DNA of 38,321 bases from Spongiibacteraceae bacterium. GTDB lineage: Bacteria; Pseudomonadota; Gammaproteobacteria; Pseudomonadales; PIVM01. The notes under the pieces were generated by a model. That model ran no database searches. It worked only from the letters and a program-made list of their open reading frames with translations, and was not told the DNA's origin. Shown in pieces: positions 1 through 5,621 of the stretch. The position numbers and the translations under genes were made by a program. The stretch is taken from NCBI GenBank assembly GCA_030618505.1, contig JAUXDF010000003.1:1-38321 (forward strand). The letters run 5' to 3'. The number at the start of each line of letters is the position of its first letter. The first letter of the stretch is position 1.

Positions 1-1895
1 CGCGCAGATCCGTACGTGCGCTACTAACGCATACGGCTCCTACATCGAGTCAAACACGCAACCGCTGGTTCGGGTACGGGTGAATAACACGCGCTTTCGG
101 AATGAACTCATCAATCAAACGAGTGAATCGACGCCACGGAACTGACTGGCCCCGCTGACTTCGCCTCCTCATTGATTTGATCCATAATCGGATCACCGCT
201 GTTCTGAAGCTGTCTAACGTTTTCATGTTGCTCGGCACGGCATAATAATTAAAGTAACCTTGAACCACAACTTTCAACCACGCACCAACCTTTACCGGGC
301 GGTCGTGATAGCGCTGCTTTAGTACCGACTTAATAGCGTTGATTTTTCCTCGTTGCCGCTTTGCAATGGTTTTACGCAAAAGGGTAAATCCATCATCGCT
401 GCGACGACGTGAACAGCAATGCGTAAACCCCAAAAAATCAAATGTCTGGGGTTTTCCTTCGCCTCGCTCCTGTCGATTGCTCGCTGCAAATCGACCAAAC
501 TCTATCAAGTGGGTTTTGTCTGGGTTCACTGTTAATCTAAACTCTGCCAATCGCTCTGTCAGTGCTTGTTGTAAGCGCTCTCCATCACGTTTGTACTGGC
601 AACACATGACACTATCATCTGCATAGCGAACGACGTAAACTTCTCCGCGCGCATGGCGTTTCCGCCACTGATTTACCCATAGATCTAAAACGTAGTGCAG
701 GTAGATGTTGCCCAGTAAAGGGGATATCACTGCACCTTGTGGTGTTCCTACCACTGTCTTCGATCGACAACCCTCATCCATCACGCCTGCGGTTAATGTC
801 AATTTAATTAATCGCAAAATGCGTGGGTCTGCTATCCGGTGCTTCAGGAAGGCCATCATCCAATCATGGTTGATGTTATCGAAGAAACCTTGAATATCTG
901 CATCCAACACCCAACTAACTTTCTTGACGGTAATCGCCATGTACACCGCATCCAGCGCTCGATGTTGATTGCGCGCTGGACGGAAGCCATAACTAAACCC
1001 CAGAAAGTCTGTTTCGTAAATCGACTCGAGCACCCAGACCAAGGCTTGCTGAACAATTTTATCTTCCAAACAGGTAATCCCTATTGGTCGTTGTTCGCCA
1101 TTGGCTTTGGGTATCCAAAGTCGCTTTACAGATTGCGGCCTATACCGATTGCCATGCAGTCGCCGGCAAAGCTGTTTCAGTTTTGGCGCAAGATTCTCGC
1201 CGTACTGACTCCAGTTTTGACCATCCACTCCAACGGCGGCACGCTTATTTAAAGACCGATAGGCCTTCTCCAGCATCGCTTCGGTGATAGTGTGCATCAG
1301 ATTGTTGAATTGCAGCGAGTTGTTCCGTTTTGCTGCCGTGTGTAGCCGAGCTAATACAGGAAACGCTGTTGTTATGCTCTGAGTCATAGTCACGTCCGAT
1401 TAACTCCACTTTCTCTCTGTCAAGACACTTCGCTCCACCCACTCCGCCGCCGTACTCACAACATGGTTTTCGTGGCCTTGTTCGCGGGCTTCTTCACTAC
1501 TATTATCTTGTCCGACTTCCTACCCTATAGTTTTCAGGATTCGCTAAACACTTCCCCGAAAATACCACCGCTGGAACGGCGGTGGTTACTGGTAGGATCT
1601 CCCGAGTTCCGCACAAAAGACATCCGTACATGCACCAGGTCTACGACTCCGGAGAGTCGACTATCGCACTCACGATGTCGCGCGATGGTCGTATTGCCTT
1701 CCCCTTCAGACAACAGGGTCAGCACTCTCAAGTGGTGATTTCGGAGCTCAATACTGAGCCTGCACATTCCTCTGTCAACGCTTAACCGTTAGCCTTACGA
1801 CTAACCGCTCATGACTCGAGGCCTCAGCGGGTCGTTACCCCTTACTGAGTAGAGGGCTTTCACCTCCAATCTTTTGCCGATTTATCTCGGCGCTC
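1..1895 (-). mobile_element. Group II intron, 3' end cut by window edge
   Basis: A bacterial retroelement on the - strand made of a 5' ribozyme segment (about 1394-1895), an intron-encoded protein, and the start of the post-ORF structure (1-49). The 5' segment contains GCCGAGATAAATCGGC followed by TTGGAGGTGAAAGCC, the usual look of domain I near the 5' end. The roughly 500-nt length before the ORF is normal for domains I-III. After the ORF stop, the - strand reads GAGCCGTATGCG...CGCACGTACGG, a hairpin typical of group II introns just past the RT gene. Domains V and VI lie outside the window. The 5' boundary is uncertain: the best candidate is GAGCG at 1895-1891, one base off the GTGYG consensus. 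The intron is antisense to the adjacent ppnP and ends about 40 bp upstream of it. Confidence 0.8.
50..1393 (-). CDS. ltrA: Group II intron reverse transcriptase/maturase
   Basis: A 447-residue intron-encoded protein that helps the intron RNA fold and splice, and copies it into DNA at a target site. The RT domain occupies roughly residues 40-330, with FSYGFRPAR near 133-141, TPQGAVISPLLGNIYL near 217-232 and the catalytic YADD at 257-260. The maturase (X) domain follows, with GWLKVVVQGYFNYYAVPSNM. The protein ends in IHPYPNQRLRV with no HNH endonuclease domain, so it is an endonuclease-lacking class that would use nicked or replicating DNA as primer. The track start is a GTG; an ATG two codons later is equally possible. 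The frame is intact and the catalytic residues are present, so the protein may be active. The symbol is the generic family name. Confidence 0.92.
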   Translation of the reverse strand: MTMTQSITTAFPVLARLHTAAKRNNSLQFNNLMHTITEAMLEKAYRSLNKRAAVGVDGQNWSQYGENLAPKLKQLCRRLHGNRYRPQSVKRLWIPKANGEQRPIGITCLEDKIVQQALVWVLESIYETDFLGFSYGFRPARNQHRALDAVYMAITVKKVSWVLDADIQGFFDNINHDWMMAFLKHRIADPRILRLIKLTLTAGVMDEGCRSKTVVGTPQGAVISPLLGNIYLHYVLDLWVNQWRKRHARGEVYVVRYADDSVMCCQYKRDGERLQQALTERLAEFRLTVNPDKTHLIEFGRFAASNRQERGEGKPQTFDFLGFTHCCSRRRSDDGFTLLRKTIAKRQRGKINAIKSVLKQRYHDRPVKVGAWLKVVVQGYFNYYAVPSNMKTLDSFRTAVIRLWIKSMRRRSQRGQSVPWRRFTRLIDEFIPKARVIHPYPNQRLRV

Positions 1896-1938: not shown

Positions 1939-2256
1939 ATGTCTGCATTTAACAATGTAACGGTAATCAAAGCCGCCAGTATTTACTTTGATGGTAAAGC
2001 TACCAGTCGTAAAATTACTTTTGCCGATGGCAGTATAAAAACCTTAGGCATTATGATGGTGGGTGACTATGATTTTGCTACGGTTGAAAAAGAGTTAATG
2101 GAAATTTTAGCGGGCGATATTGATGTGTTGTTACCCAAGTCAACTAACTGGCAAACAGTTAATGCATGGCAATCTTTTTAAGTGAGCGCAAACGCTTCTT
2201 TTAAAATTCGCGCTAAAACACTGACTGACTATTGTTGTTCATATTTAGCAGAATAA
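1939..2256 (+). pseudogene. ppnP: Pyrimidine/purine nucleoside phosphorylase PpnP, interrupted by in-frame TAA
   Basis: PpnP (formerly YaiE/DUF1255) is a small single-domain cupin that phosphorolyses several nucleosides to base and ribose-1-phosphate. The ATG at 1939 has AGAGGGA upstream. The first 80 residues fit the family (GKATSRKITFADGSIKTLGIMMVGDYDF, then DIDVLLPKSTNWQ and the WQSF stretch). A TAA then occurs at 2179-2181. The same frame continues without any shift as VSANASFKIRAKTLTDYCCSYLAE to a second TAA at 2254, which is the normal family C terminus ending in a CCSY-like motif. A single substitution (for example GAA, CAA or AAA to TAA) would explain this. The truncated product lacks the last cupin strands. 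The group II intron lies immediately upstream and may have removed the promoter. Readthrough or a sequencing error cannot be excluded. Confidence 0.85.
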
Positions 2257-2392: not shown

Positions 2393-3946
2393 TTATTTAA
2401 GTTTGCGGAAGTCTTTCACTTTATTAATTACTGGAAACTTATAGGTGTCGTCAAAAAATGCTTTACCAGCACCATAACCACGCATATAAGGGAACCAACC
2501 ACGCTCAGGTAGCGTTCTAACAAAGTTAGCTTCCCAACCTTTAGGCGCTTTACCTGGACCTAAAAGCATATAATAAGAACCATCTGGGTTTGTACGAAGA
2601 CCAGGGGTTCTGCTACCTACCGTTGCTTTACCATCGCCATTTTTTTCACGATTATCAATAACCGTTCGAGTATCTGTATCATAAATTACAATCGACCAGA
2701 ATAGAGATGCAGGAACATCTTTCTCGATACGGATAATGTAGTTTTCCTCACCATGTAATCTAGCGCCAGTTTCATCTTCAAATTTACCAATGTACGCTTG
2801 AGCTCGCCCTCCTGTACGCGGAATAGTCATAGCAGGAGAGGTAGTAATTGCTTCATAGGTGTAACGAGCACGAGGATCAAAGATGTCATAGTATCTCATG
2901 CGTTGATTGCCTTTAATGCCATCACCCCATTTACCACCAAGAACCATGCGCCAGTTATTTTGACGTAAAACACCATCTAATCTTTCATTGAAGACAAAAG
3001 TCTTCGCCATTAGCTCGCCCTGTAATGCACCGTCGATTAATATTTTTTTCTGACGTTCGGTAGGGTTGAATGGTTTACCTTTTTCAATACCTAATGTTTT
3101 TAGCCAGTACATGAATAATCTATCACGCTCCATCACTAGCTCTTCATTGATCGCTATATGAAGCATTTCCCAATAAGCTAATCCACGAGGTTGATAGCTC
3201 ACCAGTAATTGATCGTTTGCATCTAAATGTTTAGTAACTGGTTTTTCTCCGTAGTAATTTATATACATTTTACTACTTAGTTCTTTAATTTTTTCAGGAG
3301 AACCAATAATACGACCTAATAATAATACGCGGTTTGTTTTAACATGGTGGACATGGAAGTCATCTGTAAGTGCTGAAGGTTCAGGTATCGTATCAACAGG
3401 CGTATTTGGACCTACAATAATATGTCTGCCACCATGACCCGCCTGAGCACTAAATAAGCCAACATCATCAGGGCTTGCTTGCCAGCTATCAACAACCATA
3501 CCGACAACTGTACCCGCGGGAATATCTAAGATAACGGCGGATTTACTGGTATCGGAAGTGGCGACGAAATAAGTGCTGGATTCATTTGCCGTTAAAACAC
3601 CTCTACGTTCATTGAAAGTGCTGATAGTAGCGAACCTGTTGTCGCCATAACCTTTAACTTTCTCTGTAAGCTCGTGTCTAATACGAGTAATGCCTACAAT
3701 CGGTAAGCCCCATAGATAAAGCTGAGTAGCACGTTGATGATCCATGAGATCATACATTTTATCAGCTGTTTCATGTGTTGGAAAACTATGATCAAGTTCA
3801 TATTCACCAAAAAATGTTTTTACTTTTCCGGTAATTGGCATCAAGCTTTCAAACTCTTTTTCAGTCTGAATTTCAGACAGTGCCATACTGGGAATTAATA
3901 AAACAGACATGGCAATGCTTAACAATAATTTCACTTTTATTTTCAT
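2393..3946 (-). CDS. DUF1254/DUF1214 domain protein, secreted
   Basis: A 517-residue protein of unknown molecular function. It starts with a Sec signal peptide (MKIKVKLLLSIAMSVLLIPSMALS, cleavage likely after residue 24), so the mature protein should be periplasmic or exported. The N-terminal half fits DUF1254 (ATQLYLWGLPIVGITR near residues 75-90, then a long beta-rich stretch). The C-terminal part fits DUF1214 (VPASLFWSIVIYDTDTRTVI, then PDGSYYMLLGPGKAPKGWEANFVRT and GWFPYMRGYG). AAAAAGGAAAA precedes the ATG. It is followed upstream by a second gene of the same architecture, making a tandem pair. The family is common in marine and soil proteobacteria, with no established reaction, and none is assigned here. 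Confidence 0.88.
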   Translation of the reverse strand: MKIKVKLLLSIAMSVLLIPSMALSEIQTEKEFESLMPITGKVKTFFGEYELDHSFPTHETADKMYDLMDHQRATQLYLWGLPIVGITRIRHELTEKVKGYGDNRFATISTFNERRGVLTANESSTYFVATSDTSKSAVILDIPAGTVVGMVVDSWQASPDDVGLFSAQAGHGGRHIIVGPNTPVDTIPEPSALTDDFHVHHVKTNRVLLLGRIIGSPEKIKELSSKMYINYYGEKPVTKHLDANDQLLVSYQPRGLAYWEMLHIAINEELVMERDRLFMYWLKTLGIEKGKPFNPTERQKKILIDGALQGELMAKTFVFNERLDGVLRQNNWRMVLGGKWGDGIKGNQRMRYYDIFDPRARYTYEAITTSPAMTIPRTGGRAQAYIGKFEDETGARLHGEENYIIRIEKDVPASLFWSIVIYDTDTRTVIDNREKNGDGKATVGSRTPGLRTNPDGSYYMLLGPGKAPKGWEANFVRTLPERGWFPYMRGYGAGKAFFDDTYKFPVINKVKDFRKLK

Positions 3947-4073
3947 ATTTTTTTCCTTTTTTAGCTACCGCGTACTCAGATTTGAACCCATATTTCACTT
4001 ATTGTAATTCAGGAATTATGAAATGGTATGTACATTCCTCATAACTCCTAAATTTAAGACCTAATCAGTGATT

Positions 4074-5621
4074 TTAATTTATTTTTTCAAAATCATTTAA
4101 TTTCCATGATCCATCCCAAAAAGTCTCAGTAGGACCATACCAACGAAAATAGGCGTGCCATGTTTTTCCTGGTATTGTTTGAACCCAGTTATTCTCTTTA
4201 CCTTCTGGCGCTGTTGGCCCTAAATAAAGATCTACAGATCCGTCTTCATTATAATCTAAGTCTGAAATTCTATTATTAAACTCAACACCTCGTTGTTCGG
4301 TTTCAATAAATGAGCGTGTTTCTACGTCGTAAATAGCTAAAGACCAAAAATGCTTAGCTGGCACATCAGCATCAACATGTAATTTGTAGGTGTTTTCACC
4401 AAAAAACCAATTGCTGTCACGATCTTTTGCGATAGCCGCATAAGTTTGCCCAAACCCTGGTGGGTATTCACGTGGCGTCCATACTTGTTGTACTGACACT
4501 ATTTGATACCAAAGGATTGACCTTGGTGTGTAGGCGCCATAGTTTTCTTCTCTTTGTCCTTCAAAATCAGACATAATTTTAAGATTCAACCATTCAGTGT
4601 CATCATACACGTGCCTAAGTTTAGGGTTTTTCAAGTTATCAGGAATCTTGTACCGAATAGTAAACGCTTCGTTTACAAGCATTGCGTGTCCAATAGTTTC
4701 TGCTTCAATCAGTATTTTCTTTAAACGTTCATCTGGGTTAAAAGGCTTTCCTTTTTCAATACCTATTTCTCGCAGCATAGATAGTGCATAAAGATCACGC
4801 TCTTCAATCTCAAGATTTTGAATTACCTCATTAATCTGTTCCCAATATTTAAGTCCTTTTTGGCGATTAATTCTATATTCTTTTCCACCCGTGGCAGGAT
4901 CACCCATTAAAACAAATTTCTTTTTAAAGGTGGGATCGCTGAGAGGATATGTTTTAATTTGTTGCAGTAGTGTCGTCGCTTTTTCCGCCGTCATATCCTT
5001 AGACAAAGGGACTCGTGTTATGGAATATACTTGGTAAGTCTTTGCCTGTGCAATTTGGTAACCCGACGGAATATCACCTTCATAGTTAGGTGGAAGAATT
5101 AATATTTTATCTCCCTTGGCTCTATTAGGGCCAACCATACCAAAGTCATAAAATGCTCGATTCCATTCATCGTAAAACCCTGCATTAATAGGGCCGGCAG
5201 GCACCTCATAAACAACTGGACCACCCGTTTTACGTAAATCAATATTATCAAAAAGATAAACTACCGACTGGTTTGGTGTTAAAACCTCATGACCTGCATG
5301 CACTTTCTCATTGTAGAGCATCGCTCCTAGGTTCTGTACACCGATTTCATCCATAGCCTTTTCAAATAAATAAGTATTATAAGCGGCCTCAACCCAGAAA
5401 ACAGACTGCGTTGCTCTTTGAAAATCAAGTTCATCAAATAGCTTTTGCGAACTCGCGGCTGTAGGTAAATCATGATCGAAATCTAACTTCCCAATTTTTG
5501 AATCCAAGGTTTTTTTATATTCTACACCCGAAGTTGATTGTGCTTTCGTGGTTGTATTTGCACAACTTATAACAAATGAAATAGTTGATATAAGCAGCAA
5601 AGCCTTCGCTATTTTTTTCAT
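4074..5621 (-). CDS. DUF1254/DUF1214 domain lipoprotein
   Basis: A 515-residue paralogue of the next gene on the same strand, with the same two-domain layout: DUF1254 in the N-terminal half (LDFQRATQSVFWVEAAYNT near residue 66 onward) and DUF1214 at the C terminus (VPAKHFWSLAIYDVETRSFI, LYLGPTAPEGKENNWVQT, WHAYFRWYGPTETF). The N terminus is a lipoprotein signal with a lipobox ending FVISCA, placing the lipidated cysteine at about residue 20, so it is probably membrane-anchored. AAAAGGAAA lies 5 nt before the ATG. The gene starts only 20 bp past the stop of the tnsA fragment. The two paralogues may be co-transcribed (about 130 bp apart) and differ in localisation. Substrate and function are unknown. 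Confidence 0.88.
   Translation of the reverse strand: MKKIAKALLLISTISFVISCANTTTKAQSTSGVEYKKTLDSKIGKLDFDHDLPTAASSQKLFDELDFQRATQSVFWVEAAYNTYLFEKAMDEIGVQNLGAMLYNEKVHAGHEVLTPNQSVVYLFDNIDLRKTGGPVVYEVPAGPINAGFYDEWNRAFYDFGMVGPNRAKGDKILILPPNYEGDIPSGYQIAQAKTYQVYSITRVPLSKDMTAEKATTLLQQIKTYPLSDPTFKKKFVLMGDPATGGKEYRINRQKGLKYWEQINEVIQNLEIEERDLYALSMLREIGIEKGKPFNPDERLKKILIEAETIGHAMLVNEAFTIRYKIPDNLKNPKLRHVYDDTEWLNLKIMSDFEGQREENYGAYTPRSILWYQIVSVQQVWTPREYPPGFGQTYAAIAKDRDSNWFFGENTYKLHVDADVPAKHFWSLAIYDVETRSFIETEQRGVEFNNRISDLDYNEDGSVDLYLGPTAPEGKENNWVQTIPGKTWHAYFRWYGPTETFWDGSWKLNDFEKIN

Follow-up and report, generated by a model that had tools for sequence, protein, structure and literature searches.

Introduction

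PpnP, the pyrimidine/purine nucleoside phosphorylase of Pfam family PF06865, is represented by E. coli ppnP and by the solved structures 7EYJ and 3HQX. The ppnP gene described here resembles these proteins in its full-length sequence and in its predicted cupin fold. It differs from E. coli ppnP in carrying a TAA after residue 80 and in belonging to another, longer subfamily, which has DYCCSY or a similar motif at the C terminus. Two other described systems bear on a gene of this kind. Bacterial pseudogenes made by nonsense mutation share with it a single premature in-frame stop, a redundant copy and a mobile element alongside, while the present gene is unlike them in being so fresh that further decay is not measurable. 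In-frame stops that are common to orthologues, with constraint around them, have also been described in bacteria and have been proposed to be read through in many genes, the sign of readthrough being that orthologues share the stop (Int J Mol Sci 2021, 22:1876, PMC7918605). The present gene is like these in that the frame and the constraint around the stop are kept, but its stop is shared by no orthologue found.

The window, that is, the whole stretch of 38,321 nucleotides that was analysed, is the complete contig C308 of a draft metagenome-assembled genome (MAG) of 3.29 Mb in 461 contigs, 83.8% complete and with 3.2% contamination. In our view the ppnP gene it carries is, with a probability of about 0.8, an incipient pseudogene: a redundant copy, gained horizontally, that was recently hit by a lineage-specific nonsense mutation. 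We see in it ordinary gene decay under way, with no sign of unusual reading of the stop, and a small example of how a gene of this kind is lost beside a mobile intron before any decay becomes visible.

The interrupted ppnP frame

The frame lies on the forward strand at 1939-2256 and translates as MSAFNNVTVIKAASIYFDGKATSRKITFADGSIKTLGIMMVGDYDFATVEKELMEILAGDIDVLLPKSTNWQTVNAWQSF, a stop, VSANASFKIRAKTLTDYCCSYLAE and a second stop. Its first 80 codons run from the ATG to the internal TAA (1939-2181), which stands at 2179-2181 in place of a sense codon; the remaining 24 codons, followed by the natural TAA, are kept at 2182-2256 and encode VSANASFKIRAKTLTDYCCSYLAE, a segment that covers the greater part of the final strands in the predicted barrel. 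A Shine-Dalgarno-like AGAGGGA (1927-1933) is read in the sequence 5 nt before the ATG. When the TAA is written as X, PF06865 matches the whole read-through frame with 115.7 bits (E = 1e-33, profile positions 2-92 of 92) against a curated cut-off of 25 bits; NCBIfam NF007875 matches as well, with a score under that model's equivalog cut-off. Relatives align across the stop without a gap, which excludes a frameshift, and the frame has neither an indel nor a second internal stop. The first-pass annotation had described a single in-frame TAA with no frameshift and with the C terminus preserved beyond it, and the translation, the Pfam match and the ungapped alignment all confirm this description.

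Relatives of the gene have a sense codon where the window has its stop. A ppnP match was present in 253 of the 392 genomes searched in the host's order. Of the DYCCSY subfamily, 26 members from the order align without gaps across the stop, every one of them with a sense codon. Scanning public genomes gave 80 loci (a few of them from genomes already covered by the order search), all with an unbroken frame as far as the natural C terminus; the residue at the stop column was E in 45, N in 10, D and T in 6 each, Y in 5, with a few others. At the codon level the subfamily mostly uses GAA or GAG, and TAT or TAC occurs in four Colwellia copies, among them the two that resemble the window gene most. 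A single base change is enough to turn TAT or TAC into TAA, and the same is true of GAA. No other internal stop was found among the matches listed in the order search or among the 80 public loci. That relatives have the same stop was considered and rejected: of the three other stop-flagged matches among those listed, two (G244/L039 and G101/L152) had a terminal stop and one (G314/L153) had its stop ahead of the start.

Beyond the stop itself, the window gene has two replacements at conserved positions, V21A and G77W, which are absent from the other members compared; G77W lies four residues before the stop. These two changes may hint at some relaxed constraint. Counted over all conserved sites, the departures of the window gene are at the high end, yet within the range of intact members.

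What the truncation would do to the protein can be judged from a predicted structure. The read-through sequence, folded together with 34 relatives, gave a model of ten strands with a mean pLDDT of 93, which matches the solved PpnP structures 3HQX and 7EYJ with TM scores of 0.92 and 0.80, respectively (by query length). The last three predicted strands span residues 79-82, 86-92 and 96-103. According to the model, ending after residue 80 removes part of the first of these and the whole of the other two. As one strand of the barrel is cut and two more are lost, an active product is unlikely, and the 80-residue chain, lacking the final strands of the cupin barrel, would probably be unstable and inactive.

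Selection and the age of the mutation

A codon model fitted to 14 sequences gave an omega of 0.033 on the window branch, compared with 0.048 elsewhere, and a model with omega held at 1 there has the lower likelihood (lnL -3151.6 vs -3145.0). The lineage of the window gene has thus been under purifying selection, with no long neutral decay. Adding a neutral tail to the window branch never improves the fit, the best estimate of its length being zero; a tail near 0.2 substitutions per codon, or about 20 in the gene, costs about 1.9 log units, and we take this length as the upper limit of neutral decay. Given the length of the window branch and the saturation at synonymous sites, the codon model bounds the event and gives no date. 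The absence of a second stop says little on its own, since about half of the simulations with 20 neutral substitutions end with no further stop in the frame.

These results bear on two earlier claims. The proposal of a very recent nonsense mutation is supported by the single step from TAT/TAC or GAA, by the lack of any other disruption and by the absence of detectable neutral decay within the limit of about 20 substitutions. The related claim that an old pseudogene is unlikely holds on the strength of the same codon models and the same limit. An old pseudogene was accordingly rejected, as the codon models lend it no support and the changes at conserved sites stay inside the range of intact members.

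A redundant copy of probable foreign origin

The same assembly has a second, intact ppnP on contig C16. It is of the other subfamily, the usual one in the host's order. It is probably the native copy, given its 71-74% identity to copies in other families of the order. It is worth pointing out that C16 is only 3 kb long in an assembly with 3.2% contamination and could be misbinned, in which case the redundancy of ppnP would lose its support.

The interrupted copy has a different affinity. Its closest proteins come from Colwellia, at 71-72% identity, and a tree places it among Colwellia copies with a modest support of 0.80. By contrast, its neighbour in the contig, glmS, shares 70-72% identity with the best-matching members of the order to which the bin belongs and only 62-65% with Colwellia. 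With ppnP closest to Colwellia and glmS closest to its own order, the ppnP gene was probably gained horizontally from a Colwellia-like bacterium. The contig also carries what look, by gene order, like the atp operon and dnaA-dnaN-recF-gyrB, which would make it core chromosome. A contaminating Colwellia contig was therefore rejected, on the grounds of these apparent operons and of the closer relationship of glmS to its own order. None of the public ppnP loci showed synteny with the neighbours of ppnP in the window. In the two nearest Colwellia loci, ppnP follows a gene that we take, by eye from the sequence, to be ilvC. In Colwellia (L068 and L069, 4390-6320) it stands between an ilvC-like gene and one that we similarly named a TauE/SafE-like permease gene.

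The group II intron upstream of ppnP

A group II intron lies antisense to ppnP at 1-1895 on the reverse strand, its 3' end being beyond the edge of the contig. It is recognized by a match to Rfam RF02005 at 1637-1860, and it encodes a reverse transcriptase/maturase of 447 aa (50-1393, reverse strand) that matches Pfam RVT_1 and, with 350 bits and above the cut-off, NCBIfam TIGR04416. The 5' end was put at 1895 from the GAGCGCC start and from a perfect 8-base pairing of CAACAGGG in the exon with CCCTGTTG in the intron, and 43 bp separate it from the ATG of ppnP. At the other end, contig C187 (16794-16912) has an overlap of 119 identical bases with the window, and the 3' end of the intron runs into this contig; the join of C187 and C308 was left open by the assembler and may be one of several links. 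Past the intron, C187 has a C-terminal transposase-like fragment (FQLPLKPLAHFEGNITEQPQTG...), presumably of the REP-associated type as judged by eye from its translation. As the fragment has no N-terminal part, the intron may sit in the remnant of a truncated transposase. Elsewhere in the assembly, at C272:1516-1812, a further piece of a group II intron reverse transcriptase, 58% identical, has an in-frame TAG inside the match.

No promoter-like site was found on the forward strand from 1400 to the ATG of ppnP. The intron is antisense and only 43 bp upstream, where the two nearest Colwellia loci instead have the ilvC-like gene, and so it is plausible that its insertion removed the promoter of ppnP.

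The course of events that we infer for the loss of the gene begins with the horizontal gain of a Colwellia-like ppnP. By the time a tyrosine or glutamate codon became the TAA at 2179-2181 through a single base change, the group II intron would already have entered close upstream of the gene in antisense orientation, parted it from its promoter and silenced it. Translation would since then end after 80 residues. Such a loss would be tolerated because of the intact ppnP of the other subfamily and, presumably, because of the intron upstream. What accounts for the case thus goes beyond the features noted in the first-pass annotation, and takes in the second ppnP of the assembly, the Colwellia-like origin of the interrupted one, the antisense intron and the further unusual changes V21A and G77W.

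Alternative explanations for the stop

Next to this recent nonsense mutation, the explanation that survives best is an error of the consensus or assembly, in which case the organism has a sense codon at 2179-2181 and its ppnP is intact. The sequence comes from a draft MAG of 461 contigs, a difference of one base would be enough, and the frame is otherwise undisturbed, all of which suit an error. However, the overlap of 119 identical bases between contigs suggests a short-read de Bruijn assembly, and consensus substitution errors are uncommon in a 38 kb contig of this type. The other genes checked on the contig are open, and V21A and G77W, if they do reflect relaxed constraint, would speak for a real mutation. 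We thus regard an error as less likely than a recent nonsense mutation, with a small but real chance of being right.

A third explanation is that the TAA is read through or recoded, either as a programmed event or as a tolerated one, to give full-length PpnP. The preserved frame and C terminus fit it, as does the purifying selection on the window branch, and constraint kept downstream of the stop is also what it leads one to expect; readthrough of in-frame stops has, moreover, been proposed for many bacterial genes (PMC7918605). Against it, the stop is shared by none of the orthologues examined, and TAA terminates 14 of the 22 neighbouring genes in the window (these being named mostly by gene order), showing that the codon has not been reassigned; an altered genetic code was rejected for the same reason. 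Among the 25 tRNA matches of this genome, which is 83.8% complete, none showed a UUA anticodon. Frameshifting at the T run is no way around the stop either, as the +1 frame hits a stop at once and the -1 frame does so after a few codons, short of the family C terminus. The suggestion of recoding in the first-pass annotation thus found no support, with a stop that has no counterpart in orthologues, TAA as an ordinary terminator nearby and no suppressor tRNA among those matches, and we consider readthrough improbable. A weaker version, in which low but useful readthrough of the TAA would supply spare nucleoside phosphorylase in small amounts or under stress, strikes us as slightly more improbable still. 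Efficient readthrough of TAA is rare in bacteria, and it would take a demonstration of full-length protein to give the locus wider importance.

Least probable of all is a split protein, in which ribosomes terminate at the TAA and start again at the directly adjacent GTG (2182), and the fragments of 80 and 24 residues assemble. This GTG is the ordinary codon for valine V82, which is conserved in the family; it has no clear Shine-Dalgarno sequence before it and would place the break within predicted strand 79-82.

The downstream neighbourhood

Between ppnP and the convergent DUF1254/DUF1214 gene lies a strong, near-perfect hairpin (2288-2345; -26.9 kcal/mol, z = -6.6 vs shuffles), which is probably a transcription terminator for ppnP, for the DUF1254/DUF1214 gene or for both. 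Two DUF1254/DUF1214 genes stand in tandem at 2393-5621, just downstream of glmS and beside the probably acquired ppnP. The region just past glmS is well known as a site of insertion. Its GC content is lower (0.39 vs 0.43), which fits foreign DNA.
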